Assembly (NCBI RefSeq): GCF_003402535.2
Contig: NZ_AP025170.1
Location: 620,001 to 684,000 of the forward strand
Direction: 5' to 3'
DNA length: 64,000 bases
DNA from: Cupriavidus sp. P-10
GTDB taxonomy: Bacteria; Pseudomonadota; Gammaproteobacteria; Burkholderiales; Burkholderiaceae
Within the stretch, counting starts at the first letter, position 1. Every line of letters begins with the position of its first letter. The translations under genes were made by a program, and so were the position numbers. Shown here piece by piece: positions 10,498 through 25,142 of the stretch. The notes under the pieces are model-generated. The model ran no database searches, had not been told where the DNA came from, and was given only the letters and a program-made list of their open reading frames with translations.

Positions 10498-10718
10498 ACG
10501 TCGAGAACCTGATCACCATGGCCAACCAGATCGGCTGCTTCTTCGAGGCGATGCCTGATCGCGAGGAGGCGGTTTCCGATATCGCCGGGCATATCAAGCG
10601 CTTCTGGGAGCCGCGCATGCGCAGGGCTTTGCTGGGGCACGTCGACGGCGAATCCGGCGTCGGGCTGGATGCGATCGTGCAGGAGGCGCTGGCGCGGCAC
10701 CGGAGCGTGCTGGAATAA
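10494..10718 (+). CDS. fdsD: Formate dehydrogenase delta subunit
   Basis: 74 aa; ATGA overlap with fdsC. It is a small all-helical protein starting MNVENLITMANQIGCFFEAMPD with a GHIKRFWEPRMRR segment typical of FdsD. The family is needed for activity or assembly of NAD-linked molybdenum formate dehydrogenase and carries no cofactor motif. It is the last gene of the operon and is convergent with the DUF899 gene 32 bp further on. Confidence 0.93.
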   Translation: MNVENLITMANQIGCFFEAMPDREEAVSDIAGHIKRFWEPRMRRALLGHVDGESGVGLDAIVQEALARHRSVLE

Positions 10719-10750
10719 GTTCCGCACGAACGCCGCGCTGATCTTCGCCG

Positions 10751-11458
10751 CTACCGCTTTCCATACTCCAGCTGCGGATACCAGTCGCCGCCGCGGCCTT
10801 CCGGCGTGGTATCCAGCAGCGTCCAGAGCGGGTCCAGGTCCGGCGCGCCGCGCGGATCCTGTCCGGGGTCGGCCGTGAGGGCATACATTTCGCCGCTCCA
10901 GAAGTGCCGGATCTTGCCGTCGCGCCGCGTGAAGACCGAGTAGCCTGGCACGTCGCCGTCTTCCGGGCTGACATAGTCGCGCGTGAATGCGCCGTCGAGG
11001 TCCGCATAGACCTTCAGCTTCGTCCAGCCCCGTTCCTGCTTCGCCTGCAGCAGGCGTTCGACCGGTGAGCGGGCGATCATGGCCAGCGCCACGCGTTGCT
11101 CGATATCCGGCACCTTGTGGTCCCACGAACCCATCAGCGAAGTGCACATCGGGCAAGGCCGTTCGCGCTGCGGCCCGAACATATAGCTGTAGATAACGAG
11201 GGTGTCCTTGTCCCCGAACAGCGCTTCCAGCGTCATGGGTCCGTGTTCGCCCTGGAAGGTGTAGCGTTTGGTGACTTCGCCGCCGGGCGGCAGCCTGCGG
11301 CGTTGCGCGGCGACGCGTTCGATGTGCCGTCGCAGTTCGATCTCTTCCGCCAGCAGCGTATTGCGCGCCTTGCGGTACTCGGCACTTTCGTTGGGGAAAT
11401 GCACGGGATTGCGTTGCGCAAGTTCCATGGCTGGGGTAAGTGTTGCCTTGGCATCCAT
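10751..11458 (-). CDS. DUF899 thioredoxin-like family protein
   Basis: 235 aa from ATG 11458 with AGGAGGG just upstream. It shows the DUF899 pattern: ELRRHIERVAAQRRRLPPGGEV near the N terminus, then YSYMFGPQRERPCPMCTSLMGSWD with two close cysteines, and a C-terminal FHRWDG-like region (RHFWSGEMYAL). The family has a thioredoxin-like fold and no firmly assigned activity; a redox or dehalogenation-like role is sometimes guessed. No signal peptide. It stands alone between the fds operon and the transglycosylase gene. Confidence 0.85.
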   Translation of the reverse strand: MDAKATLTPAMELAQRNPVHFPNESAEYRKARNTLLAEEIELRRHIERVAAQRRRLPPGGEVTKRYTFQGEHGPMTLEALFGDKDTLVIYSYMFGPQRERPCPMCTSLMGSWDHKVPDIEQRVALAMIARSPVERLLQAKQERGWTKLKVYADLDGAFTRDYVSPEDGDVPGYSVFTRRDGKIRHFWSGEMYALTADPGQDPRGAPDLDPLWTLLDTTPEGRGGDWYPQLEYGKR

Positions 11459-11637
11459 GTCAGCCCTCCTTGTCAGGCTAGCGTCCCGGAACAGCCATGC
11501 AAGGTGCGCTACCCACCACCGGGTGGGATCGCGGATAACATGGCCCGTCAAGGTTGGTACCCGCCCGGAAGGGAATCGTTCCCACGCCGCGCGTTTCCGG
11601 GCCCTCACTTCCGCATCAATACCGCATCACTTCCGCA

Positions 11638-12333
11638 TCACTTCAGCCGCAAAGGCTCCAGCAGCGCCCCGTCATACTCGGGATGCGAAATCCTGCCCAG
11701 CTCCAGCATGCGGCGCAGGATATAGACTTGCCGCTGCCGGGCGCGGCGGGGATTGGCGACGGGGTTGTTCGCCGAGGGGGCCTTGGGCAGGCCGGCGAGC
11801 ATCGCGCTCTCGGCCAGCGACAGCTGCGCCAGCGGCCTGCCGAAGTAAGTCTGCGCCGCATCGGCGAAGCCATACGCGCCCTGGCCCAGGTAGATCTTGT
11901 TCATGTACAGCTCAAGGATCTCGTCCTTGCCCAGTGCGTCTTCGATCCGGTACGACAGCAGCACCTCATACAGCTTGCGCGTATAGGTCTTGTCGCGCGA
12001 CAGGTAGAAATTGCGCGCCACCTGCATGGTGATGGTCGACGCGCCCTGCGACAGGTCGTCCGACAGGTTGGCGACGCCGGCGCGGATCACGCCGACGTAG
12101 TCGATGCCGTCATGCACGTAGAAGCGCTCGTCCTCGATCGCCACCACGGCGTCGATCAGGTCGCGCGGATAGCGCGACAGCGGGACGTAGTCAGCGGTGC
12201 GGCGGAAATCCGTCAGCGCGTCGAGCGACGGCAGTTGCCGCTGGACGGCGAGGATGGCAACGGTGGCAAGCAGCGCGCCGCCGATCACGGCGAGCACCAG
12301 CAGCCTGACAAAGGCGGACCAGAGACTTTTCAT
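11638..12333 (-). CDS. Solo GT51 peptidoglycan glycosyltransferase
   Basis: 231 aa. An N-terminal membrane anchor (about residues 9-30) is followed by a GT51 domain with the catalytic block AIEDERFYVHDGID, the QGASTITMQVARN block, and RKLYEVLLSYRIE and ELYMNKIYLGQGAYG. It polymerises lipid II into glycan chains at the outer face of the inner membrane. Motif wording is closer to the glycosyltransferase half of class A PBP1a than to classical MtgA, and there is no transpeptidase domain. The protein ends in a complete stop, so it is a stand-alone polymerase of roughly MtgA length. Confidence 0.88.
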   Translation of the reverse strand: MKSLWSAFVRLLVLAVIGGALLATVAILAVQRQLPSLDALTDFRRTADYVPLSRYPRDLIDAVVAIEDERFYVHDGIDYVGVIRAGVANLSDDLSQGASTITMQVARNFYLSRDKTYTRKLYEVLLSYRIEDALGKDEILELYMNKIYLGQGAYGFADAAQTYFGRPLAQLSLAESAMLAGLPKAPSANNPVANPRRARQRQVYILRRMLELGRISHPEYDGALLEPLRLK

Positions 12334-12414
12334 GCCGCGTATTGTGCCAGCCGCGGGCGGCGGGGTGCGAGTCCCTGCTGTCCCGCTCGCCCATGGCTGG
12401 TGGCGCCGCGGCGG

Positions 12415-13464
12415 TCAGCCCTGCGGCACCGGTACGCCTACTGCCTGCGCCAGCTGCTCCAGGTTGCGCCAGATCGCGGGGTTGATGTCGAGGGCATCCG
12501 CGGCACGCTCGCGGTTGGCCGCTTCGAACTCGCCGGGATACTGCACGCGGTCGAAGCCGGGCGCCGTCGGGGTGTCGTGCAGGTATTTGACGAACGCCTC
12601 CACCTCGGCGCTTTCCCAGCTCAGGCCGAGGTCCAGCTCGGGATTGACCAGCACCGCGAACAGGTTGTTGGTGGCCACGCCGCCGCGCGGGTTTTCCGGC
12701 TGGATGGTGCCGCCGCCCGACAGCACCCCCGCCAGCAGTTCCGCCACCACGCCGAGCGCATAGCCCTTGTGCAGGCCGAACGGCAGCAGCGCGCCGGGTT
12801 CTTCGCCGAACATGGTCGAGGCGTCGGTGGTGGGGTTGCCTTCGGCGTCGATGATGCTGTTCTCGGGCGCGGCCTCGCCTTTCTCGGCCAGCACGCGCGC
12901 CTTGTTGATGGCGATCGCGCTGGTGGCCATGTCGACCACGATGGGCGGGCGGCCGTTCGGCATGGGGCCGGCGAAACACAGCGGGTTGGTGGTCAGGCGC
13001 GCGACGCGGCCGCCATACGGTGCCACTACCGGCGGCCGGTTGGTCACGTTGGTGAAGCTCAGCAGCACGAAACCCGCCGCCGCCACCAGCTCGCCGTAGT
13101 GCCCCATGCGGCCCAGGTGGTGCGAATGGCGCAGCGTGACGATGCAATGGCCGTGCTCGCGCACGCGCTCGATGGCGGCCTGCATCACGGTCTTGCCCAC
13201 GTGCTGGCCGAAGCCGCGGTGGCCGTCGAACACCATCAGCGAGCCCCGGTCCAGCGCGCAGGTGGCGCGGCCTTCGCGGTTGACGTTGTTGGTCTCGATC
13301 GCCTTGCGGTAGTTGGGCAGGATCGAGATGCCGTGGCTGGCGTAGCCGCAGCGGTCGGCTTCGACCAGGTGCTCGGCGACGTCGTCGGCGATGTCCTCGG
13401 GTACCGACTGTGCCACCAGCAGGTCGCGGGCAAAACGGCGGGCGGAATCCAGGGAGATTTTCAT
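12415..13464 (-). CDS. Ldh/YiaK-type NAD(P)-dependent 2-hydroxyacid dehydrogenase
   Basis: 349 aa. ATG 13464 is preferred over 13467 because GGAGG then sits 5 nt away. Family hallmarks: an N-terminal HxVEADRCGYASHGI segment, RHSHHLGRMGHYGE in the nucleotide and substrate pocket, TNPLCFAGP, VVDMATSAIA, and KGYALGVVAELLAG. This malate/L-lactate/ureidoglycolate dehydrogenase family has a novel NAD fold, distinct from Rossmann lactate dehydrogenases. It lies 22 nt downstream of the DASS transporter gene on the same strand, so the substrate is probably the carboxylic or hydroxy acid that the transporter imports. The exact acid cannot be read from the sequence. Confidence 0.85.
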   Translation of the reverse strand: MKISLDSARRFARDLLVAQSVPEDIADDVAEHLVEADRCGYASHGISILPNYRKAIETNNVNREGRATCALDRGSLMVFDGHRGFGQHVGKTVMQAAIERVREHGHCIVTLRHSHHLGRMGHYGELVAAAGFVLLSFTNVTNRPPVVAPYGGRVARLTTNPLCFAGPMPNGRPPIVVDMATSAIAINKARVLAEKGEAAPENSIIDAEGNPTTDASTMFGEEPGALLPFGLHKGYALGVVAELLAGVLSGGGTIQPENPRGGVATNNLFAVLVNPELDLGLSWESAEVEAFVKYLHDTPTAPGFDRVQYPGEFEAANRERAADALDINPAIWRNLEQLAQAVGVPVPQG

Positions 13465-13486
13465 CATGGCCTCCTTAACGGCTGTC

Positions 13487-15043
13487 TTATACCCAGCCCA
13501 GCCAGCGCCAGTAAGTCGCCGCGAACAGCAGCATCAGGCCGTAGCCGATGATGGTGACCGGGATGCCGATGCGCGCGAACTGGCGGCCGTTGAAGGTATC
13601 GGTGCCCAGGCACACCATGTTCTGCGGCGCGTTGATCGGCAGGATAAAGCCGAAGCTGACGGTAAAGCCCAGCAGCATGGTGATGCCGACGCGGTTGATG
13701 TCGCCGGGCAGGGTCTGCAGTACCGAGATCAGGATCGGCAGCAGCGCCGCGGTGAGCGCGGTGGCGCTGGCAAAGCCCAGGTGGATCAGGATCAGGAACG
13801 CCGCCAGGATGGCGAACACCATCACCGCACCCTGCGTGGCCAGGCCCGAGTGCGTGACCACGAATTCGCCCAGCCACTGGCCGGCCTTGGTCGACAACAA
13901 CGCGGTGCCCAAGCTGATGCCGACGCCGAACACGATCAGCGTGCCCCACGGCGTGCGCTGCTGCATGGTCTTCCAGTCCATCACGCCGATGCGCGGCAGC
14001 ATCAGGATCACCAGGCCGACAAAGGTCACCGTGGCGGTATCGAAGCTGTGCAGCTTGCCCTCGGTGGCCCAGAACAGCAGCAGGCCGATCGACACCGCGG
14101 CCAGGCGCTTCTGCGGGCCGGTCATCGGGCCCAGTTCGGACAGCTCGCGCTGCACCGCTTCCTTGCCGCCGGGGATGGCTTCGGTCTCGGGCGGCAGCAG
14201 CCAGCGCACCAGGAAGTACAGCACCACCGACATGACGATGGCCCACGGCGCGCCGGCGATCAGCCACTGCAGCCAGGTGATCCGCTCACCGAGCAGCTTG
14301 TCCATGAAGCCCACGGTCAGCAGGTTCTGCGCGGCGGCGGTCTGGATGCCGACGTTCCAGATGCTGGTGGCCTGCGCCACCGTGATCATGATGCCGGCGG
14401 CGATATTCGACTTCTTGTCGACACCGAACGCGGCGATCACGCCCATCATGATCGGCACCACGCACGCGCTGCGCGCGGTGGCGCTCGGCACCACCAGGCT
14501 CAGCGCGATGGTGACGGCGACCGTGCCGATCAGGATGCGGCGCGTGCTGGTGCCGATGGCCGACAGCGTCACCAGCGCGATGCGCCGGTCCAGCCCGGTC
14601 ACGGTCATCGCCGCGGAGATGAACAGCGCGGCGGCCACCAGCGCGAGCGCCGTGTTGGAGAAGCCGGCCAGCGCCATGCCCAGCGCCCGGGAGGTGCCGT
14701 ACTGCACGCTGGGGTCGCTGACCGTCGGCGCAAAGCCGATCAGCCCGGCCATCAGCGAGGTGATCATGATCGCGCTGGCCTCGTACGAGACCGCCTCGGT
14801 GATCCACACCACGATGGCGAAGGCGAGGATGGCCAGCATGCGCTGGCCGGCTATGGTCAGTCCTTCCGGCTGCGGGATCGCGAGTACGCCAAGCAGCACG
14901 GCGACGGCGAGGAACAGGCCCCAGTGCAGCGCCATCCTGGGCGCGGCGGCGCTGGCGGTTGCCGCGGTCGCGGGCGCCGTGGGGGGAGCCGGGGAGGCAG
15001 GTGAAGCCGGGGAGGCAGGTGAAGCGTGAGAGGTATCGGGCAT
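13487..15043 (-). CDS. DASS-family (SLC13) anion/dicarboxylate transporter
   Basis: 518 aa. ATG 15043 is chosen because AAGGA lies about 8 nt upstream; ATG 15052 would leave no spacing. After a Ser-Pro-Ala-rich tail of about 40 residues there are 11-12 hydrophobic segments with the DASS signatures VPSATARSACVVPIM and, near the C terminus, FILPINAPQNMVCLGTDTF. Members are Na+- or proton-coupled carriers or exchangers of dicarboxylates, tartrate or sulfate. It is the first gene of a two-gene unit with the Ldh-type dehydrogenase. The N-terminal tail contains a four-fold SPA repeat encoded by a tandem DNA repeat. Confidence 0.88.
   Translation of the reverse strand: MPDTSHASPASPASPASPAPPTAPATAATASAAAPRMALHWGLFLAVAVLLGVLAIPQPEGLTIAGQRMLAILAFAIVVWITEAVSYEASAIMITSLMAGLIGFAPTVSDPSVQYGTSRALGMALAGFSNTALALVAAALFISAAMTVTGLDRRIALVTLSAIGTSTRRILIGTVAVTIALSLVVPSATARSACVVPIMMGVIAAFGVDKKSNIAAGIMITVAQATSIWNVGIQTAAAQNLLTVGFMDKLLGERITWLQWLIAGAPWAIVMSVVLYFLVRWLLPPETEAIPGGKEAVQRELSELGPMTGPQKRLAAVSIGLLLFWATEGKLHSFDTATVTFVGLVILMLPRIGVMDWKTMQQRTPWGTLIVFGVGISLGTALLSTKAGQWLGEFVVTHSGLATQGAVMVFAILAAFLILIHLGFASATALTAALLPILISVLQTLPGDINRVGITMLLGFTVSFGFILPINAPQNMVCLGTDTFNGRQFARIGIPVTIIGYGLMLLFAATYWRWLGWV
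14994..15028. repeat. In-frame tandem repeat encoding (Ser-Pro-Ala)n
   Basis: The 18-bp unit GGGAGGCAGGTGAAGCCG is repeated about twice inside the N-terminal cytoplasmic tail of the DASS transporter gene. Copy-number change would keep the reading frame. Confidence 0.7.
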
Positions 15044-15113
15044 CGCCGTCATCCTTGTGTTGATGATCCTCGTCGGATACCTCGACGCGGCGTGCTGGCG
15101 ATCGGTGCGGCAG

Positions 15114-15131
15114 GCCGGCAACTTTGCCGGC
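15114..15131. promoter_or_regulatory. 18-bp palindrome upstream of the DASS operon
   Basis: Arms GCCGGCAA (15114-15121) and TTGCCGGC (15124-15131) are perfect, separated by CT, about 70 bp before the transporter start. It is a candidate operator for an unidentified regulator. The rest of the 15044-15462 gap holds no other signal that I trust. Confidence 0.45.
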
Positions 15132-15462
15132 GGGGCATTGTCGGTCGCGAGGCTGCATCCGCGTCGGGCTTGCTCTAGCGGCCCGGCTTCTGGCCTGGCC
15201 GCCGCGTTCGACATGATAGGAATTGTCCGGGCCGGCGGTGGGCGATGTCGAGGCTCCGACTCGCTTCATTGCGCCGACAATGATTCAGATCAAGTTTAGT
15301 TTCGAGCGACGGATTTTTGCGGCGGCTTCGCTATCCCATCTATAAAGGCCGGCGCTACAAGGCGTGGCGGGCGTGGCGTGGCGATGAGGGCGCACGCGCC
15401 ACCGCGCCCGGCCAGCCGGGTGATGCATGCGCCGGTGTGATCTGAAATAATTGGAGCCGATG

Positions 15463-15708
15463 ATGAAGGTTTTAGTACGCGGGCTGAAGGCAGGACTCAG
15501 CGCAGCGGCGCTGCGCAAGGCATTGGCACAATACGCCAGCATCCGCTCGGTCGAGCTGGTCGAGGCCGGCGACCCGAAGCGCCCGTGGGCCTGGGTCGAT
15601 ATCGACGCCGGCGCACTGGCGGTGTGGAAGCTGGTGGCGCGGCTGGACCGGCGCTATATCGCCGGCAGCCACCTGCGCTGGTATGTGCCGGCCTATCGCG
15701 GCCGCTGA
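15463..15708 (+). CDS. RRM-like mini-protein, copy A
   Basis: 81 aa from ATG 15463, with GGAG at 15453-15456 (ATG 15460 is too close to it). The protein begins MKVLVRGL, has SIRSVELVEAGDPKRPWAWVDID in the middle and ends SHLRWYVPAY. The order of a beta strand VLVRGL, a helix, a strand and then a PWAWVDID strand resembles a minimal RNA-recognition motif, with RNP2-like and RNP1-like strands, although the aromatic RNP1 consensus is only partly present. A clear paralog is encoded at 19589-19831. Function is unknown; RNA binding is an inference from the fold pattern. Confidence 0.7.
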   Translation: MKVLVRGLKAGLSAAALRKALAQYASIRSVELVEAGDPKRPWAWVDIDAGALAVWKLVARLDRRYIAGSHLRWYVPAYRGR

Positions 15709-15757
15709 CGCTGCCAGGTGCGACGCCCGCATCGACAAGAACATTCAGGGAGCAACA

Positions 15758-16579
15758 ATGAACAAGTGGTTCCGATGGGCGTTTCCGCAGGCCCAGGCAA
15801 TCGTGTCGCCAGGACCGGCGGCAGTGGAGAGCATGAACGGCAACGCCGCACTGGCATTCGACACCATCAGCAATGCGCGCGACCTTGGCGGGCTGCGCGG
15901 CGCCGCCGGACGGCGCGTGCGCAACGGCCGGCTGTACCGCAGCGGCAACCCGGCGCTGGCCAGCACGGCCGACCTGGACCGGCTGCATGCGCTCGATCTC
16001 GACACGGTGGTCGACTTCCGTTCGTCCGGCGAGAAGTCGCCGGACGAAGCCGCCTTCGGCGCGCGCTTCAACTGGGTGGCGGTGCCGGTGCTCGATGGCA
16101 GCATGGCGATGGACGTGCTGATGCCGCGCCTGCGCACCAGCACGCCGGCGCAGATCGACGGCTTCATGCTTGACGTCTACCGCGATTTCCCGGTGCGCTA
16201 CCGCGACGCCTTCGCCGGCTTCATGCAGACCGCGCAGCAGGGCAAGACGCTGCTGTTCCACTGCACCGCGGGCAAGGACCGCACCGGTTTTGCCTCGCTG
16301 TTGCTGCTGTCGGCGCTGGGCGTGGCGCAGGACGATATCCTCGCCAACTACCTGGAATCGAACCAGCGCAATGCCCGCTTCAACGAGACCGCGCTGGCGC
16401 GCATGGCGCAGCTGGGCGTGAGCGCCGAGGCCATGATGCCGCTGCTCGAAGTCCGCGCCAGCTATCTGGATGCCTCGCTGCAGGCGATCGAGCAGGGTTG
16501 GGGCAGCGTCGACAACTACCTGGGCGACGCGCTTGCCGTCGACGTCGCGCAGCTGCGCGCGCACTACCTGGAAGACTGA
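15758..16579 (+). CDS. Tyrosine-protein phosphatase (Y_phosphatase3 family)
   Basis: 273 aa from ATG 15758, with GGGAG upstream. The N terminus carries the NARDLGGL and LYRSGN signatures of the family, and the P-loop is HCTAGKDRTG with nucleophile C169 and R175. DFRSSGEKSPDEA is the general-acid region. There is no signal peptide. Relatives dephosphorylate phosphotyrosine and, in some cases, phosphoinositides; the substrate here is unknown. It sits between the RRM-like gene and the ackA remnant. Confidence 0.88.
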   Translation: MNKWFRWAFPQAQAIVSPGPAAVESMNGNAALAFDTISNARDLGGLRGAAGRRVRNGRLYRSGNPALASTADLDRLHALDLDTVVDFRSSGEKSPDEAAFGARFNWVAVPVLDGSMAMDVLMPRLRTSTPAQIDGFMLDVYRDFPVRYRDAFAGFMQTAQQGKTLLFHCTAGKDRTGFASLLLLSALGVAQDDILANYLESNQRNARFNETALARMAQLGVSAEAMMPLLEVRASYLDASLQAIEQGWGSVDNYLGDALAVDVAQLRAHYLED

Positions 16580-16624
16580 CGCGCCGCCTCGCTCAAAGTC
16601 CGAATGCCCTGAAGCCCTGAAGCA

Positions 16625-16765
16625 TTAAAGCCGCCCGCATTCGCGCAGGATGCGGGCGGTACTCAGCGCGATCATCCCTTCTTCATCGGTCGGCAGCACC
16701 AGCACCGGCACGCGGCTTCAGCCCGGATTCGCCATAGAGCATCGACTGGATCTCGGCCGGCTTAT
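16625..16765 (-). pseudogene. Remnant of acetate kinase (ackA), internally deleted
   Basis: On the minus strand, the last codons before TAA at 16627-16625 read VPVLVLPTDEEGMIALSTAR, then ILRECGRL, which is an acetate-kinase C terminus (PTxEE-MIA-DT). Just upstream, in another frame, KPAEIQSMLYGESGLK matches the central EIExLLYxxSGL region of AckA. The piece between these two is missing, so this is a deleted, frameshifted relic. A 10-bp inverted repeat (16631-16640 with 16650-16659) lies inside it. The rest of the 16580-16913 gap holds nothing coding. Confidence 0.65.
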
Positions 16766-16913
16766 ACCGAGACCTCACCGCCGGTGCCTTGCACCGCGCC
16801 ACGTCGGCTGCTAGGCTTTATTTTAGTTGCAGTGCAACATGCGCCACTCCGGCCTGCGCCACCAGCGTGCACACCCGCAACAGGCGCGAACAGGCGCCAA
16901 CAGGGGAAGTGGA

Positions 16914-19292
16914 ATGACCGCTCGCATACCCGCCGGTCCGTCTCAGCGCGGCACCGGCCCCTCCACGCGCCCGTCCGCCGACGGCGCCAACCCCTACCTG
17001 GGGCAGCCGGCTCTGGAGTACTTCGCCGATGCCTGGCAACGCTCGGTGCTGTTGCTGGATATCCTGCGCCAGCGCGGCAACGAGTCCTCCGAACATGAGC
17101 GCGAAGGCATGCCTGCGGTGCTGGTGTTCGAGCACGAACTGCTGGCCGACGGACGTGAACTGTCCGAGCCCGTCAACTACGCGCTGCTGCGCATCATCCC
17201 GCCTGCCGCCAGTCCCACCGACCCAACCAAGCGCGCCTTCGTGGTGATCGACCCGCGTGCGGGCCACGGCCCGGGCATCGGCGGTTTCAAGGCTGACAGC
17301 GAGATCGGCATCGCGCTGCGCACCGGCCACCCTTGCTACTTCATCACCTTCTACCAGGAGCCGTGCCCTGGGCAGACCATTGAATCGGTCGCGCGCGCCG
17401 AGGCGCATTTCCTGCGGCTCGTCAGCGAGCGCCACCCCGACGCGCCGGGCAAGCCCTTTATCGTCGGCAACTGCCAGGCCGGCTGGGCCCTGATGATCCT
17501 GGCTGCGGTGGCGCCCGAGCGCTGCGGGCCGCTGCTGGTCGCCGGCGCGCCGCTGGCGTATTGGTCAGGCGTGCGCGGGCGCAATCCGATGCGCTACAGC
17601 GGCGGGCTGCTGGGCGGCTCGTGGCTCGCGTCGCTGACCGCCGACATGGGCAACGGGCGCTTCGACGGCGCCTGGCTGGTGCAGAACTTCGAGAAGCTCA
17701 ATCCCGCCAACACGCTGTGGTCAAAGCTCTACGACGTCTACGCCAGGGCCGATACCGAAGGCCCGCGCTTCCTGGAATTCGAGCGCTGGTGGGGCGGCCA
17801 CTTCCTGATGAACCGGGAAGAGATCGACTGGATCGTGCAGAACCTGTTCGTCGGAAACCGCCTGACCGCGGGGCAGGTGCGCAGCAGTGACGGCAAGACC
17901 GAGGTCGACCTGCGCAACGTGCGCTCGCCGGTGATCGTGTTCGCATCGTGGGGGGACAACATCACGCCGCCGCAGCAGGCGCTGAACTGGATCCCCGATC
18001 TCTACGCCACCGATGAAGAGCTGGTGGCCAACGACCAGGTCATTGTCTATTGCCTGCATCCGACCGTCGGCCACCTCGGCATCTTTGTCTCGGCCGGTGT
18101 CGCCAACCGCGAGCACAGCGAACTGTTCTGCGCGCTTGACCTGATCGACGTGCTGCCGCCGGGCCTGTACGAGGCCAGGATCGAGGACGTCGCGCCGGAC
18201 ATGCCGCACCGCGACCTGGTCGAAGGGCGCTACCTGGTGCGCTTCGAGCGCCGCAGCGTGACCGACATCCTGGCGCTGGACGACGGACGCGAGGACGAGC
18301 GCGCCTTCGAGGTGGTGCGCCGCGTCGCCGAAGTCAACCAGCACCTCTACGACACCTTTGTCTCGCCGTGGGTGCGCGGGATGTCGAGCGAACTCAGCGC
18401 GCAATGGATGCGCAATATGCATCCGGCCCGGCTGGAGCGTTCGCTGGCCACCGACATGAACCCGTGGATGGCGTGGATCGGCGCCCTCGCGCCGATGGTG
18501 CGCGCGCACCGCACGCCGGTATCGCCGGACAACCCGTTCCTGACGATGGAGAAGGCGGCGTCGGCGCAGATCGTCAGCGCGCTGGACCAGTTCCGCGACG
18601 TGCGCGACGCCTGGTACGAGCAGGCCTTCGAGGCCATCTACAACTCGCCGGCGATGGCCGCGCTGGTGGGGCTGCAGGCGCAGCCGCCGGTCAATACCGA
18701 ATCGCCGGTCACGCAGGCATTGCGCAAGGAACTGGCTGAACGCCGGCTGCACGACGCCGAGGCCGCGATCGAGCAGGGCGGCAAGCTGGAGGCCTTCGTG
18801 CGCGTGCTGGCCTACGTGGCCGACCGGCCCAGTTCGATCGAGGAACGGCCCTTCAACCTGCTGCGCCGGTTCGCGCGCGAGCAGCCCGAGACCGCGGGGC
18901 AGGTAAGCCTGGCCAGGTTCAAGCAGGTGGTGCGCCAGCAGACCTTCATCGTGCAGCGCTATCCGCAGCATGCGGTGCAGGCGCTGCCGGCATTGGTGCA
19001 GGACCGCGAAATGCGACGCCGGCTGATGATCGCGGTGCACCAGGTCATGACGCTGGACCACCCGCTCGAAGGCGAGCGGCTGGCGCGCTACCGCGAAGTG
19101 AGCGAGGTGCTGGGCACGCGCCACCCGCTGCGTTCCGCCAAAGACGACGGCGAGGCCGTGGCCGGCAGCGAGGTGTCCGAAGTGCGCGAGGTGCCCGAGG
19201 TGCCCGAGGTGCCCGAGGCACCCGAAGCGGCCAGCAAGCCGCAGGCATCGCGCGCGGTGCAGCGCAAGGCGGCGCCGCGGCCGGGTAGCTGA
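16914..19292 (+). CDS. DUF3141 PhaC-like alpha/beta-hydrolase
   Basis: 792 aa from ATG 16914. The N-terminal half resembles class III-type PHA synthases: a GNCQAG nucleophile elbow with C187 in the lipase-box-like site, the acidic residue in SWGDNITPPQQAL, and the histidine in HPTVGHLGIFVS. The C-terminal half is helical and ends in a low-complexity EVxEVxEVP repeat. Family members usually sit beside a bifunctional enoyl-CoA hydratase/phosphate acetyltransferase, ackA and fabI, and their role is not settled. Here those partners are lost or reduced to relics. The gene itself is intact and has a strong ribosome site. Confidence 0.85.
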   Translation: MTARIPAGPSQRGTGPSTRPSADGANPYLGQPALEYFADAWQRSVLLLDILRQRGNESSEHEREGMPAVLVFEHELLADGRELSEPVNYALLRIIPPAASPTDPTKRAFVVIDPRAGHGPGIGGFKADSEIGIALRTGHPCYFITFYQEPCPGQTIESVARAEAHFLRLVSERHPDAPGKPFIVGNCQAGWALMILAAVAPERCGPLLVAGAPLAYWSGVRGRNPMRYSGGLLGGSWLASLTADMGNGRFDGAWLVQNFEKLNPANTLWSKLYDVYARADTEGPRFLEFERWWGGHFLMNREEIDWIVQNLFVGNRLTAGQVRSSDGKTEVDLRNVRSPVIVFASWGDNITPPQQALNWIPDLYATDEELVANDQVIVYCLHPTVGHLGIFVSAGVANREHSELFCALDLIDVLPPGLYEARIEDVAPDMPHRDLVEGRYLVRFERRSVTDILALDDGREDERAFEVVRRVAEVNQHLYDTFVSPWVRGMSSELSAQWMRNMHPARLERSLATDMNPWMAWIGALAPMVRAHRTPVSPDNPFLTMEKAASAQIVSALDQFRDVRDAWYEQAFEAIYNSPAMAALVGLQAQPPVNTESPVTQALRKELAERRLHDAEAAIEQGGKLEAFVRVLAYVADRPSSIEERPFNLLRRFAREQPETAGQVSLARFKQVVRQQTFIVQRYPQHAVQALPALVQDREMRRRLMIAVHQVMTLDHPLEGERLARYREVSEVLGTRHPLRSAKDDGEAVAGSEVSEVREVPEVPEVPEAPEAASKPQASRAVQRKAAPRPGS
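19165..19230. repeat. In-frame repeat encoding Glu-Val-Pro units
   Basis: The 9-bp unit GAGGTGCCC is repeated in frame near the 3' end of the DUF3141 gene, giving a glutamate-rich tail. It is compositionally unlike the rest of the gene. Confidence 0.7.
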
Positions 19293-19295
19293 GTG

Positions 19296-19336
19296 GTGCC
19301 AGGTGGAGCGCCAGGTGGTCCGCCAGGTGGTGCCCT
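19296..19336. repeat. 12-bp imperfect tandem repeat between DUF3141 and the fabI relic
   Basis: GCCAGGTGG recurs every 12 bp, three to four times, in the short interval after the DUF3141 stop. It lies at the probable deletion junction. Confidence 0.6.
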
Positions 19337-19373
19337 CAGCAGTCCTGCGTGAAGTCTTCCCCCGGAGGCATCG

Positions 19374-19582
19374 ATGGTCAACGTTTCCAACCCGCCGCTC
19401 GCCGGCGCCCGCGTGCTGGTGGCGGGCGTCGCCTGGCCGATGCTGCAGGGCGCGCGCCGCTGGGCGAGGTGGTCGACATCATGGACGTCGGCTTTGCCAC
19501 TGCCTACCTGGCCACGCCGTACGCGCGGCGCATCTCGGGCAATACGGTGTACGTCGATGGCGGCGTGCACATCATGGCGTAG
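19374..19582 (+). pseudogene. Remnant of enoyl-ACP reductase (fabI) with internal deletion
   Basis: The ribosome site (GGAGG) and the first ~20 codons from ATG 19374 read MVNVSNPPLAGARVLVAGVA, a FabI N terminus with the first strand of the Rossmann fold. From about 19454, in a different frame, APLGEVVDIMDVGFATAYLA continues to a NTVYVDGGVHIMA end and a stop at 19582, which is a FabI C terminus. Roughly 190 central codons, including the Tyr/Lys catalytic region, are gone. It cannot encode a functional reductase. Confidence 0.75.
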
Positions 19583-19588
19583 CGGGTC

Positions 19589-19831
19589 ATGCAGATACTG
19601 ATCCGCGGCTTGCCCCGCGACGTCACCGAAGCCATGCTGCAGGACAAGCTCTGCATCTATGCGCCGGTCAGGTCCGTGGAGATCCTGCGCGACGGCGATC
19701 CCGAGCGCCCGTGGGCATGGGTCGACCTTGACATCGACCGGATCGCTGCCTTGCGCCTGCTGCGCCAGTTCGACCGCCAGTCCTTCAAAGGCGGCGTGAT
19801 GCGCTGGTATATCCCCATGCACCAGGAATGA
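19589..19831 (+). CDS. RRM-like mini-protein, copy B
   Basis: 80 aa from ATG 19589, starting MQILIRGLPRDVTEAMLQDK. It shares length and layout with the protein at 15463: an ILIRGL strand, a helix, APVRSVEILRDGDPERPWAW then VDLD, and a final MRWYIP. Similarity to an RNA-recognition motif is clearer here (LPRDVTEAMLQDKL resembles the helix after RNP2). It follows the fabI relic by 6 nt and precedes modE. Function is unknown. Confidence 0.75.
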   Translation: MQILIRGLPRDVTEAMLQDKLCIYAPVRSVEILRDGDPERPWAWVDLDIDRIAALRLLRQFDRQSFKGGVMRWYIPMHQE

Positions 19832-19904
19832 ATGCCCGGGAAAGGGATTACCATAGCCGCGTCTGCCACTCTGTCACGGCACCGGCCCACGGTGCCTCTC
19901 CTCC

Positions 19905-20699
19905 ATGCTTGAACTCCAGGGAGCCATCTGGTTCCGCTCCGGCTCGCAAGACTGGGGCGGCAAGGACCGCATCGCGCTGCTGGCCGCCATCGGCGAGCAC
20001 GGCTCGATCACCGCGGCCGCGCGCGCGGTCGGCATCAGCTACAAGGCCGCGTGGGACGCCATCGACCTGATGAACAACAGCGCCGGCGAAGCGCTGGTGG
20101 TGCGCGCCGCCGGCGGCAAGGGCGGTGGCGGCACGCGCCTGACCGCGCGCGGCGAGCAGCTGATCCGCACCTACCGCGCGCTCGAGGACGAGCACCGGCG
20201 CTTTGTCGCGCAGCTGTCGCGGCTGGGAGAGGGCGCGGCTGACGATATCCACCTGATGAGGCGAATGATGATCAAGACCAGTGCGCGCAACAAGCTGTTC
20301 GGGCGCGTGGCCAGTGTGCGCGGCGGCGCGGTCAACGACGAGGTGGTGCTGGCGCTGCCGGGCGGCCAGCAGATCGTGTCGACGATCACGCATGAAAGCG
20401 TCGAGGCGCTGGAGCTGGCCGAAGGCGTGGAGGCATTTGCGCTGATCAAGGCGTCATCGGTGCTGGTGGGCCTGCCCGATCCGGGCGTGCGGCTGTCTGC
20501 GCGCAACCAGCTGCCGGGTGTGGTGTCGCGCGTGATGCCGGGCGCGGTCAATGCGGAGGTGGTGATCGAGCTGGATGGCGGCGGCACCATCGCGGCGATC
20601 GTCACCAATGGCAGTGTCGAGACGCTGGAGCTTGCCGTGGGTGTGCCGGCGGTGGCGGTGTTCAAGGCGTCTAGCGTGATCCTGGGGGTGGTGGGGTGA
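19905..20699 (+). CDS. modE: ModE, molybdate-responsive transcriptional regulator
   Basis: 264 aa. Residues 1-110 form a winged helix (ALLAAIGEHGSITAAARAVG, SYKAAWDAIDLMN). Two Mop/TOBE domains follow (SARNKLFGRVASVRGGAVND and SARNQLPGVVSRVMPGAVNA), each with the molybdate-binding SARN-G pattern. Molybdate-loaded ModE represses molybdate uptake genes; the probable operator is at 23040-23063 before modA. The gene is convergent with modC, which ends 28 bp away. The start has no good Shine-Dalgarno sequence. Confidence 0.93.
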   Translation: MLELQGAIWFRSGSQDWGGKDRIALLAAIGEHGSITAAARAVGISYKAAWDAIDLMNNSAGEALVVRAAGGKGGGGTRLTARGEQLIRTYRALEDEHRRFVAQLSRLGEGAADDIHLMRRMMIKTSARNKLFGRVASVRGGAVNDEVVLALPGGQQIVSTITHESVEALELAEGVEAFALIKASSVLVGLPDPGVRLSARNQLPGVVSRVMPGAVNAEVVIELDGGGTIAAIVTNGSVETLELAVGVPAVAVFKASSVILGVVG

Positions 20700-20727
20700 G
20701 GGTGGCATGCTGACGCCGCGCCGGCGC

Positions 20728-21462
20728 TCAGGCCACGCGCGCCGACAGCGGCGCGTAGACCGGCGCATGGTGGCGGCTGTCGCCGCTGCCGAAGATGCGG
20801 CCTTCGCGGATCTCGAGCACGTGGTCGCCCAGCGCTTCAACGTCGGCGGGATCGTGCGAGATCACCAGCATGGGCACGTCAAGGCTCGACTGCAGCGTGC
20901 GCAGCTCTGCGCGCATGCGTGCGCGCAGCGCGGGATCGAGCGCCGAGAACGGTTCGTCGAGCAGCACGATATCGGGCTGCGCCACCAGCGCGCGCGCCAG
21001 CGCCACGCGCTGCTTCTGCCCGCCGGAAATCTCGGCAGGATAGTTGCCGACGATCTCGTTCAGCCCGAAGGCATCGATCCAGCGCCGGGCTTCCGGCGGG
21101 ATCGCGCCGCGGCGCGGGTTGCGCCAGCCGCGCGCCAGCCCGAAGGCGATGTTCTGGCCGACCGTCAGGTGCGGGAACAGCGCGTATTCCTGGAACAGGT
21201 AGGCCACGCGGCGCTCTTGCGGGCGTACGTCGATGCCCGCCTCGCTGTCGAACAACGTGCGCCCGTTCAGTTCGATGCGGCCGCTGTCGGGCGCGAGCAG
21301 CCCGGCGATGGCGCGCAGCGTCAGGCTCTTGCCGGCGCCGGACGGCCCGAACAGCGCGATGCGGCGGCTGTCGGAGTCGAAATCGATATCAAGCGAAAAC
21401 TGCCGGTCGGCCGACACCATCTGCTTGCGGATACTGACGTGCATGCCCATGGCGTTCCTCAC
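20728..21462 (-). CDS. modC: ModC, molybdate ABC transporter ATP-binding protein
   Basis: 244 aa. Walker A is GPSGAGKS, the Q-loop lies in FQEYALFPHLTV, the signature is ISGGQKQRVALARAL, and Walker B is VLLDEPFSALDP. The protein stops soon after the nucleotide-binding domain, so it lacks the C-terminal Mop domain of E. coli ModC; regulation by molybdate binding would rest on ModE. It overlaps modB by 4 nt. The first ATG is used; ATG 21450 is a possible alternative. Confidence 0.93.
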   Translation of the reverse strand: MRNAMGMHVSIRKQMVSADRQFSLDIDFDSDSRRIALFGPSGAGKSLTLRAIAGLLAPDSGRIELNGRTLFDSEAGIDVRPQERRVAYLFQEYALFPHLTVGQNIAFGLARGWRNPRRGAIPPEARRWIDAFGLNEIVGNYPAEISGGQKQRVALARALVAQPDIVLLDEPFSALDPALRARMRAELRTLQSSLDVPMLVISHDPADVEALGDHVLEIREGRIFGSGDSRHHAPVYAPLSARVA

Positions 21463-22172
21463 CGTACCGCGCGCGGGCGCAGGCGCCGGCGTTCATACAC
21501 TTCAGCGGGATTGCGCGCGGCGGCGGGCACCAGCCGACCGGCGACCACCAGCAGCAGCACGCAGGTGACCGAAGTCACCAGCACCAGCAGGTTGGCGGTG
21601 TTGTCGTCGCCGGCCTGCACGGCCTCATAAATTGCCACCGACAGGGTCTGGGTGCGCCCGGGCAGGTTGCCGGCGATCATCAGCGTGGCGCCGAATTCGC
21701 CCAGCGCGCGCGCGAATGCCAGCAGCACGCCGGCGATGATGCCGCGCGCGGCCAGCGGCAGCGTCACGCGGAAGAAGATGCCGGATTCGGAAACGCCCAT
21801 CACGCGTGCGGCGTTTTCCAGCTGGTGGTCGACGCCTTCAAACGCAGCGCGGGCCGACTTGAGCACCAGCGGGAAGGCCACGATGGTCGAAGCCAGCACC
21901 GCGCCCTGCCAGGTGAAGACCAGTTCGATGCCGAGGCTGGACAGCCACTCGCCAAACACGCCACGCCGGCCCACCAGCACCAGCAGGTAGTAGCCGAGCA
22001 CGGTGGGCGGCAGCACCAGCGGCAGCGTCAGCACCGCGTCGACCACGTCGCGCAGCGGCGAGCGCCAGCGCGCCAGCGCCCACGCGGCGCCGACGCCAAG
22101 CACGGCGTTCAGCGCGGTGGCCCAGCCGGCAACCTTCAGCGACAGCAGCAGCGGTACCCAGACGGCATCCAT
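21459..22172 (-). CDS. modB: ModB, molybdate ABC transporter permease
   Basis: 237 aa with about five to six membrane segments and the coupling EAA-like loop FALGEFGATLMIAGN-type sequence (here ARALGEFGATLMIAGNLPG). It forms the inner-membrane channel with ModC and receives molybdate from ModA. modA lies 13 nt upstream and modC overlaps downstream, so the three genes are one operon. Confidence 0.94.
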   Translation of the reverse strand: MDAVWVPLLLSLKVAGWATALNAVLGVGAAWALARWRSPLRDVVDAVLTLPLVLPPTVLGYYLLVLVGRRGVFGEWLSSLGIELVFTWQGAVLASTIVAFPLVLKSARAAFEGVDHQLENAARVMGVSESGIFFRVTLPLAARGIIAGVLLAFARALGEFGATLMIAGNLPGRTQTLSVAIYEAVQAGDDNTANLLVLVTSVTCVLLLVVAGRLVPAAARNPAEVYERRRLRPRAVR

Positions 22173-22185
22173 GGCGTGGCGGAAA

Positions 22186-22983
22186 TCAGGGCTTGTGGAA
22201 GCCGTAGCGCGCCAGGATGGCCTGGCCTTCCGGCGACGCCACGAAGTCGACGAACTGCGCCGCTTCCTTCTGCTGGCGGGTCTGGCTGGTGACGGCGATG
22301 GGGTAGGTCACCGGGGTGCGGCTGGGCACGCGCACGGCGACCTTGACCTTGTCGGGCATCAGCGTGGCGTCGGTGGCAAAGACGAAGCCGGCCTCGACCT
22401 CGCCGCGCGCCACGTAGTCCAGGCTCTGGCGCACGTTCTGCGCGGGCACGCCCTTGGCGGCGACCGCGTCCCACAGCCCGGCGGCTTCCAGCGCGCCGCG
22501 GGTGTAGCGGCCGACCGGTACCGAGGCCGGGTTGCCATAGGCGATGCGCTTCACTTCCGGCCTGGTCAGGTCCTGCAGCGAGCCGATGTTCAGCTTGCTG
22601 TCCGACGGCACGATCAGCACCACCTCGTTGGCGGCGAAATTGCGGCGCGAGGCGGGCGCAATCACCTTCTCGGTCTCGGCCTTGTTCATCGCTTCCTGGT
22701 CGGCGGAGGCAAACACGTCGGCCGGCGCGCCCTTGACGATCTGCTGCATCAGCACGTCCGACGCGCCGAAGTTCAGCACCACCTTGGTCCCGGGATGGGC
22801 GCGCTCGTAGGTCTCGGCCAGCGACTTGAAGGCGTTGGTCAGGCTGGCGGCGGCGGACACCACCAGGTCGGCGCCGAAGGCCGGCGCGGCGGGCAGGGCC
22901 AGCGCCAGGGCGGCCAGCATGGCACCGGCGGCGCCGGCGAGAACGGAGCGGCGCCCGGTACGGGCGGAGCGGAACGCGGACAT
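22186..22983 (-). CDS. modA: ModA, periplasmic molybdate-binding protein
   Basis: 265 aa. Residues 1-35 are a signal peptide with an arginine pair (GRRSVLAGAAGAMLA), so Tat export is possible. The mature part has the ModA signature VVSAAASLTNAFKSLAETYE, NFGASDVLMQQI and the DVFASADQEAMN region. It captures molybdate (and probably tungstate) for ModBC. It is the first gene of modABC. Confidence 0.94.
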   Translation of the reverse strand: MSAFRSARTGRRSVLAGAAGAMLAALALALPAAPAFGADLVVSAAASLTNAFKSLAETYERAHPGTKVVLNFGASDVLMQQIVKGAPADVFASADQEAMNKAETEKVIAPASRRNFAANEVVLIVPSDSKLNIGSLQDLTRPEVKRIAYGNPASVPVGRYTRGALEAAGLWDAVAAKGVPAQNVRQSLDYVARGEVEAGFVFATDATLMPDKVKVAVRVPSRTPVTYPIAVTSQTRQQKEAAQFVDFVASPEGQAILARYGFHKP

Positions 22984-23039
22984 GGGATCCTCAGCGAAGC
23001 GGCCAGTAAAGCTGGCGCTGGTATGGGTGGACTGTCAGG

Positions 23040-23063
23040 CGCAATATACGTCCGTATATAGCG
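23040..23063. promoter_or_regulatory. ModE operator upstream of modA
   Basis: CGCAATATACG (23040-23050) and CGTATATAGCG (23053-23063) form an inverted repeat with one mismatch around TC, matching the CGnTATAT-N-ATATAnCG style of ModE boxes. It lies 57 bp before the modA start, where a repressor would block the promoter. Confidence 0.8.
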
Positions 23064-23162
23064 GTGCGTCAATGATGCACCCTGCGCGCTGTTGTGGGTA
23101 TTCCGGCGGGGATAAGTGCGGTATCAGGGGCTGCGAATGTGCCCCAAGGGGGGAAGGTCGGG

Positions 23163-23187
23163 AGCTGGCGCCATTGCAGCGCCAGCT
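23163..23187 (-). terminator. Stem-loop after the DUF1059 gene
   Basis: Perfect 9-bp arms AGCTGGCGC (23163-23171) and GCGCCAGCT (23179-23187) with a 7-nt loop, just downstream of the DUF1059 stop. There is no U-run on that strand. Confidence 0.5.
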
Positions 23188-23197
23188 TGTTCCGGTT

Positions 23198-23392
23198 TCA
23201 GGCCGGCGGGTTGCCTTCTTTGAACAACGACTTCAACTGGGTGCGCAGTTCGGGGGTGTCCTGGTGCTGGTGCACCGCGACTGCGTGCTGGACCGCGGCT
23301 TCGAGTAGTTCGTCTTCACTGTCGGCGCTCAGCGCAACCGTGCAGCCAATGTCGCTCGGGTAATCGCGGCAATCGATAAACTTGCGTCCCAT
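23198..23392 (-). CDS. DUF1059 small protein
   Basis: 64 aa from ATG 23392 with AGGAGG directly upstream. MGRKFIDCRDYPSDIGCTVA and a HAVAVHQH segment are the DUF1059 pattern; two cysteines and the histidines could bind a metal. Function is unknown. It has its own terminator-like stem-loop and probably its own promoter. Confidence 0.8.
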   Translation of the reverse strand: MGRKFIDCRDYPSDIGCTVALSADSEDELLEAAVQHAVAVHQHQDTPELRTQLKSLFKEGNPPA

Positions 23393-23452
23393 GGTGCCTC
23401 CTGTCACCGGCCGCGCGGCCGGCGTATCCAGTATAGGCAGGGGGACCGGCCA

Positions 23453-24394
23453 CTACAGCACTGGCGTCAGCACCTTGCCGCCGGCCAGGAACGCATCCAG
23501 GTTCTGCAGCGTGAGCGCGGTCATCGCGGCGCGGGTCTCGTTCGTGCCGCTGGCCATGTGCGGCGCCAGCACGACGTTGTCTAGCGCCAGCAGCGCGGCC
23601 GGCATGTTGGGCTCGTCCCGGAACACATCGAGGCCGGCGCCGCCCAGGCGGCCTTCGGCCAGCGCCGCCACCATCGCGTCTTCGTCGATCACGCTGCCGC
23701 GCGAGACATTGACCAGGATGCCCTTGGGGCCGAGCGCGTCGATGACCTCGCGCGATACCAGCCCGGCGGTTTCCGGGCCGCCCACGCAGGTCACCACCAG
23801 GAAGTCCGACCACGCGGCCAGCGCCTTCAGGTCGGCCTCGAAGCGCCACGGCGCGCCGTCGCGCGGGCGGCGGTTGTTATAGGCGATCTCCATGTCGTAG
23901 CCCTGCGCGCGGCGCGCCACGATCTCGCCGATGCGGCCCAGCCCCAGGATGCCGAGCTTCTTGCCCGAGGCCCGTGTCGTCAGCGGAAAGCCGCCCTGCG
24001 GCCAGCGTCCGGCGCGCACGTAACGGTCGCCATGGGCGATGCCGCGTGCGGCGTCGAGCAGCAGCCCGAAGGCCAGGTCAGCGACGCAGTCGTTGAGCAC
24101 ATCGGGCGTATTGCTGACCTGGATGCCGCGTGCGCGGGCGGCATCCAGTGCGATCGAGTCATAGCCCACGCCGAAGCTGACGATGGCCTGCAGCGCCGGC
24201 AGCGCGTCGATCAGCGCGGCGCTGCAGCCATGGCGCGCCGAGGTCACCACCACGCGCACCTGCTGGCCGTGCTCGTGCGCCCAGGCAAGCGCATCGCCCT
24301 GTTGCCACAGCGCGATGGCGCCGTACTGTTGCTGGAGGCTGGCATTGGTCTGGGGCGCGAGCGGGCCGACCTGGAGGATCTGGGAAGCGGACAT
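23453..24394 (-). CDS. D-isomer-specific 2-hydroxyacid dehydrogenase (glyoxylate/hydroxypyruvate reductase type)
   Basis: 313 aa from ATG 24394. NAD(P)-binding GLGRIG in KKLGILGLGRIGEIVARR, active-site arginine in VNVSRGSVIDE, glutamate in DEPNMP, and histidine in APHMASGTNETR. The arginine-bearing dinucleotide tail NNRRPRDG suggests NADPH use, as in plant-type HPR2 and GhrA/GhrB-like enzymes. It probably reduces glyoxylate or hydroxypyruvate in the cytoplasm. The upstream ATG at 24439 is less likely. It is divergent from the deoxyribosyltransferase-like gene. Confidence 0.85.
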   Translation of the reverse strand: MSASQILQVGPLAPQTNASLQQQYGAIALWQQGDALAWAHEHGQQVRVVVTSARHGCSAALIDALPALQAIVSFGVGYDSIALDAARARGIQVSNTPDVLNDCVADLAFGLLLDAARGIAHGDRYVRAGRWPQGGFPLTTRASGKKLGILGLGRIGEIVARRAQGYDMEIAYNNRRPRDGAPWRFEADLKALAAWSDFLVVTCVGGPETAGLVSREVIDALGPKGILVNVSRGSVIDEDAMVAALAEGRLGGAGLDVFRDEPNMPAALLALDNVVLAPHMASGTNETRAAMTALTLQNLDAFLAGGKVLTPVL

Positions 24395-24561
24395 GAGGTG
24401 TAGCGGGTATCGACGGAGGGACCAAGGATGGTAGCGCAAGGCCCCGCGTCGTGCAGGCGACCGCCGCCGCCGCGGCGCCGGCGCGCAAGCAACTTTGTGC
24501 GATGTTCGTGCGGGGGCGGGTTATGCTGCGGCATCCCATTCCTTCCCTGACGAACATCGCC

Positions 24562-25122
24562 ATGAAAACCATCTACCTGGCCGGTTTCGACGTCTTCCGC
24601 AAGGACGCCATCGCCTGGGGCGAGCACCTCAAGTCGCTGTGCGCGGCGCATGGCTTCACCGGGCTGTATCCGCTCGACAAGGCGGCACCCGGAGGCCTGT
24701 CGGGGCAAGACGCGGCGCGCTGGATCTACGACGCCAATATCGCGCTGCTGCGCCGCGCCGACATGGTGATGGCCAACCTCGACGATTTCCGCGGGCCGGG
24801 AGAGCCGGACTCCGGTACGGCCTTCGAGGTGGGGTTCGCGGTTGCGCTGCAAAAACCGGTGTGGGGCTACAGCACTGACCTCGGCACGGTGCTTGATCGT
24901 GCCACGGTGGTGACCGACGAGGACGGCCGGCCGCTGGATGCGCGGGGCTTCGTGGTGGAGGATTTCGGCTTGCCCAAGAACCTGATGCTGGCGTGCCCGG
25001 TGAAGCTGGTGCAGGGCGGGGCGGCGCAATGCCTGGCGGCGATGGCCGACGCCATCCACCGGCGCGCCGCCGAAGCGGCGGCACGGCGCGAGCGCGATGC
25101 GGCGGCCTGGGGGGATGACTGA
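24562..25122 (+). CDS. Nucleoside 2-deoxyribosyltransferase-like protein
   Basis: 186 aa from ATG 24562. The N-terminal MKTIYLAGFDVFRKDA and the DSGTAFEVGFAVALQKPVWG block, with the putative nucleophile glutamate in AFEVG, are the family's signatures; RADMVMANLDDFRGPGEPD lines the active site. The family swaps or hydrolyses 2'-deoxyribose on nucleosides or deoxynucleotides, for salvage or to remove damaged nucleotides. The Arg/Ala-rich C terminus is not conserved. It is convergent with pqiC and has no obvious partner. Confidence 0.8.
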   Translation: MKTIYLAGFDVFRKDAIAWGEHLKSLCAAHGFTGLYPLDKAAPGGLSGQDAARWIYDANIALLRRADMVMANLDDFRGPGEPDSGTAFEVGFAVALQKPVWGYSTDLGTVLDRATVVTDEDGRPLDARGFVVEDFGLPKNLMLACPVKLVQGGAAQCLAAMADAIHRRAAEAAARRERDAAAWGDD

Positions 25123-25142
25123 CGCGGCGCGATGGAACCTGC

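Follow-up and report, generated by a model that had tools for sequence, protein, structure and literature searches.

In our reading, two small genes in the window, the 64,000 nt stretch of the Cupriavidus sp. P-10 genome analysed here, are copies of a fifth gene that has gone unnoticed in some Burkholderiales DUF3141-pta-ackA-fabI operons and has been retained after the enzyme genes were lost. Each gene encodes a protein of about 80 residues with a single RNA recognition motif (RRM), and we call them RRMA and RRMB. In some relatives the intact cluster ends with such an RRM gene, a position suggestive of a control protein able to outlive the enzymes. The mini-RRM is probably a small RNA-binding regulator, with RNA binding predicted from the RRM fold, two tryptophans in RNP1 and a relative in Acinetobacter baumannii. 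The full proposal, namely an eroded operon whose fifth gene was duplicated in Cupriavidus and whose products are predicted to bind RNA and act post-transcriptionally, has in our judgement an even chance of being right. The features of the locus, in window coordinates, are as follows (L and G numbers are our designations for loci and genomes).

13487–15214, minus strand: DASS-family anion symporter gene, one flank (PF00939, E=1.1e-146).
15437–15462, plus strand: conserved AT-rich RRMA leader (GTGATCTGAAATAATTGGAG...) with a Shine-Dalgarno-like GGAG.
15463–15708, plus strand: RRMA, 81-aa single-RRM protein (AlphaFold model, Foldseek, dN/dS).
15758–16579, plus strand: PTP, intact tyrosine phosphatase gene (Y_phosphatase3; PF13350, E=4.8e-62).
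16640–16717, minus strand: ackA remnant, 3' end of the gene (tblastn).
16716–16763, minus strand: second ackA fragment, from deeper in the gene and fused to the first (blastn).
16773–16913, plus strand: conserved region upstream of the DUF3141 gene that outlived the ackA/pta deletion (alignment to L066).
16914–19292, plus strand: intact DUF3141 alpha/beta-hydrolase-like gene (PF11339).
19374–19582, plus strand: fabI remnant (sequence reading and comparison with relatives).
19589–19831, plus strand: RRMB, 80-aa single-RRM protein, 6 nt past the fabI stop codon (RRM_1, model).
19905–20699, plus strand: ModE-type molybdenum regulator gene, the other flank.

A first-pass annotation of this DNA had proposed that the two small proteins on either side of the PTP and DUF3141 genes are paralogues, and comparison of RRMA with RRMB bore this out (BLASTP E=2e-27, 34/79 residues identical, 43%). 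The M-x-x-L-x-RGL start, GDPxRPWAWVD centre and RWY[VI]P end that it had picked out are present in both. Their likeness to RRMs, for which it had proposed structure prediction, was likewise borne out: AlphaFold modelled both as RRM folds with the order beta-alpha-beta-beta-alpha-beta, at a mean pLDDT of 90.6 for RRMB and 81.7 for RRMA. RRMB scores 21.7 bits against Pfam RRM_1 (cut-off 20.7) and RRMA falls below the cut-off at 11.9 bits. The best PDB match to RRMB found by Foldseek was the A. baumannii RRM 7qzp (TM 0.77). At E <= 0.001, 111 PDB chains matched RRMB and only two matched RRMA, for which the 50 matches listed are, judging from their titles, mostly RRMs or RNA-binding domains. A single-sequence search of solved structures returned nothing below E=1 for RRMA and a weak best match (0.0026) for RRMB.

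The ackA and fabI relics recognised in the first pass are both real, as judged by tblastn and blastn against the genes of relatives. The first ackA remnant is 88% identical to residues 421–446 of a relative's AckA (tblastn, E=1e-7), and the fragment fused to it is 87.5% identical over 48 nt to positions 6611–6658 of L061 (blastn). The fabI remnant retains ~20 codons from the start of the gene and ~48 from its end, on either side of a single internal deletion with its join at 19433. Since the points matching this join are 571 nt apart in L064, L066 and L068, the two halves lie in different frames. An out-of-frame translation begun at the fabI start terminates at 19601, 13 nt into RRMB, and translational coupling from the fabI remnant to RRMB is possible. 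Only 6% of the ackA query and 19% of the fabI query were covered at the window locus, and pta had no tblastn match at E <= 1e-3 between RRMA and RRMB, leaving no intact pta-ackA-fabI set there. The DUF3141 gene had been described as intact and is so: its product matches PF11339 at 951 bits, over the cut-off, from profile position 1 to 579 of 582, and is 89% identical to that of another Cupriavidus locus (L160). The earlier statement that the acetyl-phosphate module had been lost therefore holds for this locus, where pta is unmatched and ackA a remnant, but not for the cell, which retains pta and ackA at L116 and L117. These DUF3141 loci lie on P-10 contigs C1 and C3, respectively, and in both pta and ackA are stop-free in the matched stretch; L117 also has fabI, one in-frame TAG in its DUF3141 gene and an RRM fragment upstream.

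The region upstream of the DUF3141 gene is 85.5% identical to that of L066 over 159 alignment columns, with conservation from about 16773. A scan for sigma-70-like promoters listed none in 16773–16913. A conserved block at 16789–16817 was considered as a sigma-70 promoter for DUF3141 and rejected, as its hexamers match at only 3/6 positions each by our own count and it is absent from the scan. Rfam models at gathering thresholds gave no match within 10000–26000.

We mapped 45 loci of the genus Cupriavidus, the window included, all of them selected for an RRM match. In L053, L055, L056 and L120 the island is intact and has the order RRMA-PTP-(ackA and pta on the other strand)-DUF3141-fabI-RRMB followed by modE, which in L120 is about 3 kb further away. 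Between ackA and DUF3141 lies a phosphate acetyltransferase gene, whose product matches PF01515 and passes the cut-off of NCBIfam PRK11890. Thus, the comparison with other Cupriavidus genomes that had been suggested shows that intact pta-ackA and fabI do lie between two RRM genes in relatives. It also disposes of the idea that the P-10 genome was rearranged here, because ackA is opposite to DUF3141 in every island locus where both were found, which makes this the normal orientation for the genus; only deletions are seen in the window. In other genera the genes of the DUF3141 operon are all on one strand, unlike the Cupriavidus island, and any inversion must therefore predate the P-10 genome. 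Nor was the RRM pair gained in P-10 or along with the decay, as the first pass had allowed, since both copies are present in six other genus loci and a single copy in 38.

Both RRM genes were found in seven of the 45 loci, RRMA only in 18 and RRMB only in 20. PTP lies 3' of RRMA on the same strand in all 25 loci with RRMA, and the DASS symporter was matched in 31/45 of the fetched stretches, including the window and one locus at 9% coverage. All four enzyme genes were matched at >=80% coverage in 21/45 loci, among them L127, where DUF3141 is split over three frames. None of the four reached this coverage in 11/45 loci, all of which kept an RRM, so the function of the RRMs is not tied to the enzymes in cis. 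The state of the window, with both RRM genes and DUF3141 whole, pta absent and ackA and fabI reduced to remnants, is unique among the 45 loci. We rejected an apparent anticorrelation of the two copies across the 52 genus genomes (7 with both, 18 with A, 20 with B, 7 with neither; Fisher p=0.002), which is confounded by phylogeny and counts two broken A copies as present. The genus genomes with no RRM match were G005, G012 (54% complete), G016, G026, G027, G215 and G282.

The arrangement DUF3141-pta-ackA-fabI-RRM on one strand was found outside this island in G078, G733, G841, G1059 and Massilia sp. BJB1822 (L115, L289, L294, L297 and L213). In each, the RRM gene is last and begins about 8–25 nt past fabI, with the RRM start codon in G841 and G1059 uncertain by a few codons. 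A second Cupriavidus island, L086, likewise has its RRM gene last, behind fabI with the same spacing of about 8–25 nt and on the same strand. When a first profile of 39 rows, mainly Cupriavidus A and B proteins with one row from L083, was used to search 299 genomes of the family, it returned one strong locus outside the genus, that of G078, with the RRM gene directly behind the fabI of a DUF3141-pta-ackA-fabI cluster. The four other non-genus matches came from one genus and were weak (E 2.5e-4 to 6.5e-4); no island genes were found at L132 and L133, two of those four loci. A 13-row profile run over 104 loci, nearly all around DUF3141, detected RRM-like frames in additional loci, and its reversed-sequence controls gave nothing below E=1, with one at 0.046 after iteration. 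L176, from Burkholderiaceae bacterium 16, has one RRM gene ahead of DUF3141 and another, decayed, following fabI, and in L150, from another order of the class, RRM genes flank DUF3141 on both sides; paired RRMs around DUF3141 are therefore not unique to the window. The small frames listed behind FabI (58/103 DUF3141 loci with FabI) yielded by eye only the known RRMs and the decayed one in L176, in a test that missed the L162 RRM, whose start lies beyond its limit. Tandem RRM genes stand behind DUF3141 in L083 and L084; in L084 the first is in two frames and pta was matched only in part.

A phylogeny of 33 proteins groups RRMA and RRMB in one clade (97/95) with two subgroups, A (85/93) and B (88/86). 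This clade adjoins the operon RRMs of Massilia and G733 (92/83), a join that carries a long-branch warning. Alignment of the A/B profile by hhalign to nine operon or near-operon RRMs gave a probability of 97.0% (E=9.4e-11); the figure was 99.5% when the pair from Massilia and G733 was used. We infer that RRMB has kept the ancestral position following fabI and that it was RRMA that moved. The ancestral operon would have been DUF3141-pta-ackA-fabI-RRM, with an ~80-residue single-RRM protein as the fifth gene product. In the Cupriavidus ancestor, pta-ackA may have become divergent from DUF3141-fabI, and the RRM gene would have been duplicated, with RRMB staying behind fabI and RRMA placed in front of the PTP gene. 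P-10 would then have lost pta, the greater part of ackA and the central part of fabI in separate deletions, while DUF3141, PTP and both RRM genes appear to have been kept under selection. The two proteins are predicted to bind short single-stranded RNA by the beta-sheet and the two tryptophans at the RNP1 positions, and would exert post-transcriptional control over the mRNA of the operon itself or over shared stress mRNAs.

The RPWAWVD[LI] centre is the RNP1 strand. RPWAWVDL aligns opposite RGFAFVTF of hnRNP A1 RRM2, with W42 and W44 opposite its two RNP1 phenylalanines. RNP2 of hnRNP A1 also has an aromatic residue, whereas RRMA and RRMB have Leu where one is expected. Eukaryotic RRM proteins often have several RRMs each; those of hnRNP A1, PABP, HuR and TIA-1 have their fold in common with RRMB, and the RNP1 strand is alignable for hnRNP A1. 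AB-Elavl of A. baumannii (7qzp; PMC9313427) is like RRMA and RRMB a single RRM of the same topology, and its RNP2, ILVRNL, also has Leu at the aromatic position. Its RNP1 is KGFGFVEM as against RPWAWVD[LI], and its gene neighbours encode an ASCH-domain protein and a helicase rather than a DUF3141 island. AB-Elavl is reported to bind AU-rich RNA, and the role of prokaryotic RRM proteins is called not fully elucidated (PMC9313427). Cyanobacterial Rbp proteins (PMC9333190) are small and have one RRM, like RRMA and RRMB. They differ in the Rbp_regulator model (NCBIfam NF058537, cut-off 100), in which RRMB scores 12.1 bits and the first RRM of L083 16.4 bits, with RRMA unlisted.

Neither the nine operon or near-operon RRM relatives nor the first RRM of L083 have the RNP1 aromatics. 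Together with the RNP2 Leu, this speaks against the family binding RNA in the classical way and makes a protein-binding role a serious rival. The mini-RRM would then be a domain that binds no RNA and serves as a partner or assembly factor of an operon enzyme or of the phosphatase, and its fixed position behind fabI and beside PTP is consistent with that. However, both RNP1 tryptophans are nearly invariant in the Cupriavidus A and B proteins, and RRMs persist in the 11 loci that have none of the four enzymes. We give the protein-binding explanation a real but clearly smaller probability than the RNA-binding regulator.

A possible first target of that regulator would be RRMA's own conserved AU-rich leader. 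By our own count, 17 of the 23 upstream regions aligned for RRMA share the 18 bases GATCTGAAATAATTGGAG without change, the loci being related. A 15-mer of the leader, GTGATCTGAAATAAT, has one exact occurrence in the genome and one more at 2 mismatches, with none for the backwards control. We regard the leader as a candidate self-control site; alternatively, it may be a promoter. A regulon built on it was rejected, as only the one further site at 2 mismatches was found in the genome. A stronger version of the proposal has a separate bacterial single-RRM subfamily controlling the acetyl-phosphate/fatty-acid operon via its mRNA, with the Cupriavidus pair as independent regulators that outlasted the enzymes and RRMA controlling itself through the AU-rich leader. 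We consider this version rather doubtful.

A second rival holds that the RRMs have a general stress function, such as adaptation to cold or low oxygen, and are near DUF3141 only through shared neighbourhoods and regulation. Relatives of the family do occur beside genes for RND efflux, PPK2, DUF2950/DUF3300 and PqiA/MlaD, and P-10 has two further such RRM genes away from DUF3141 (L285 and L286). Against this stand the operon-like spacing behind fabI in five taxa outside the genus and the location of general RRM_1 matches given below. The distribution of the wider RRM type favours the main proposal. Among 399 genomes of the order, a wider (A5) profile seeded mostly from RRMs beside DUF3141, which inflates the association and proximity figures, matched 32, with DUF3141 in 49 and both in 18 (Fisher p=2.5e-10, uncorrected, like the counts below, for genome size and phylogeny). 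DUF3141 was thus present in 18/32 genomes with the RRM type and 31/367 without. With Cupriavidus left out the values were 15/29 and 31/367 (p=2.4e-8), and counted by genus 14/23 and 21/135. The 15 genomes from outside the genus that have both genes contain 17 RRM matches; four of these are no more than 5 kb from DUF3141, where 0.05 would be expected. General RRM_1 matches occurred in 12/19 DUF3141 genomes. Five of the matches are the RRMs of Cupriavidus islands, and the remaining ten, nine from outside the genus and one from G012, do not share a contig with DUF3141 or are 300 kb distant from it, a weak control as several genomes are in many contigs. The link between RRM and DUF3141 is not universal: six of 80 named DUF3141 loci have a flanking RRM, four of them in Cupriavidus and some loci being cut by contig ends, and 4/46 non-genus DUF3141 genomes of the order sample have an RRM within 5 kb. 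On balance a general stress function seems unlikely.

RRMA and RRMB are under purifying selection. Median pairwise dN/dS was 0.186 for RRMA (23 genes, 239/253 pairs usable, two broken copies excluded) and 0.188 for RRMB (27 genes, 333/351 pairs usable). Among the eight comparisons listed for the window gene, RRMA gave 0.06–0.39 against its five nearest orthologues and RRMB 0.23–0.39; the window's DUF3141 gave 0.20–0.23 (three orthologues) and PTP 0.17–0.31 (four comparisons). That the whole locus is decaying, with the RRMs merely next to be lost, is very improbable and already weakened: L118 and L119 carry a truncated or interrupted RRMA, only RRMB-start-like stretches of 31 and 16 nt follow fabI in L066 and L068, and L117 and L084 hold RRM fragments, but dN/dS is well below 1 for all four genes, window comparisons included, and an RRM match was found in 45/52 genus genomes, two broken copies among them.

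DUF3141 (PF11339) proteins are described together with PHA synthases (PMC11878206). The window protein matches the full family but has no intact pta, ackA or fabI beside its gene. DUF3141 is rarely mentioned in the literature searched, and the mini-RRM adds a possible regulator to DUF3141 loci. Searches for RRMs with Cupriavidus or with an ackA/fabI operon, covering titles and the beginnings of abstracts, found no account of such a link, and searches on Sinorhizobium meliloti pta-ackA and on fabI2 found nothing pertinent. The recurrent place of the RRM gene at the end of a metabolic operon offers a concrete, testable function for one RRM subfamily.

Other members of the wider family have different neighbours. 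In L290, L291 and L083 the RRM gene adjoins an RND efflux set and a gene for a 356-aa protein that matches no Pfam family at E <= 1e-5, and in P-10 L285 adjoins genes of DUF2950, DUF3300 and PPK2 clusters. Two of the window's own proteins contain repeats: the DUF3141 protein is repetitive at its C-terminus (VPEVPEVPEAPEA, window 19160–19240), beyond the matched Pfam domain, and the DASS transporter has short SPA repeats near its N-terminus (window 14985–15045).
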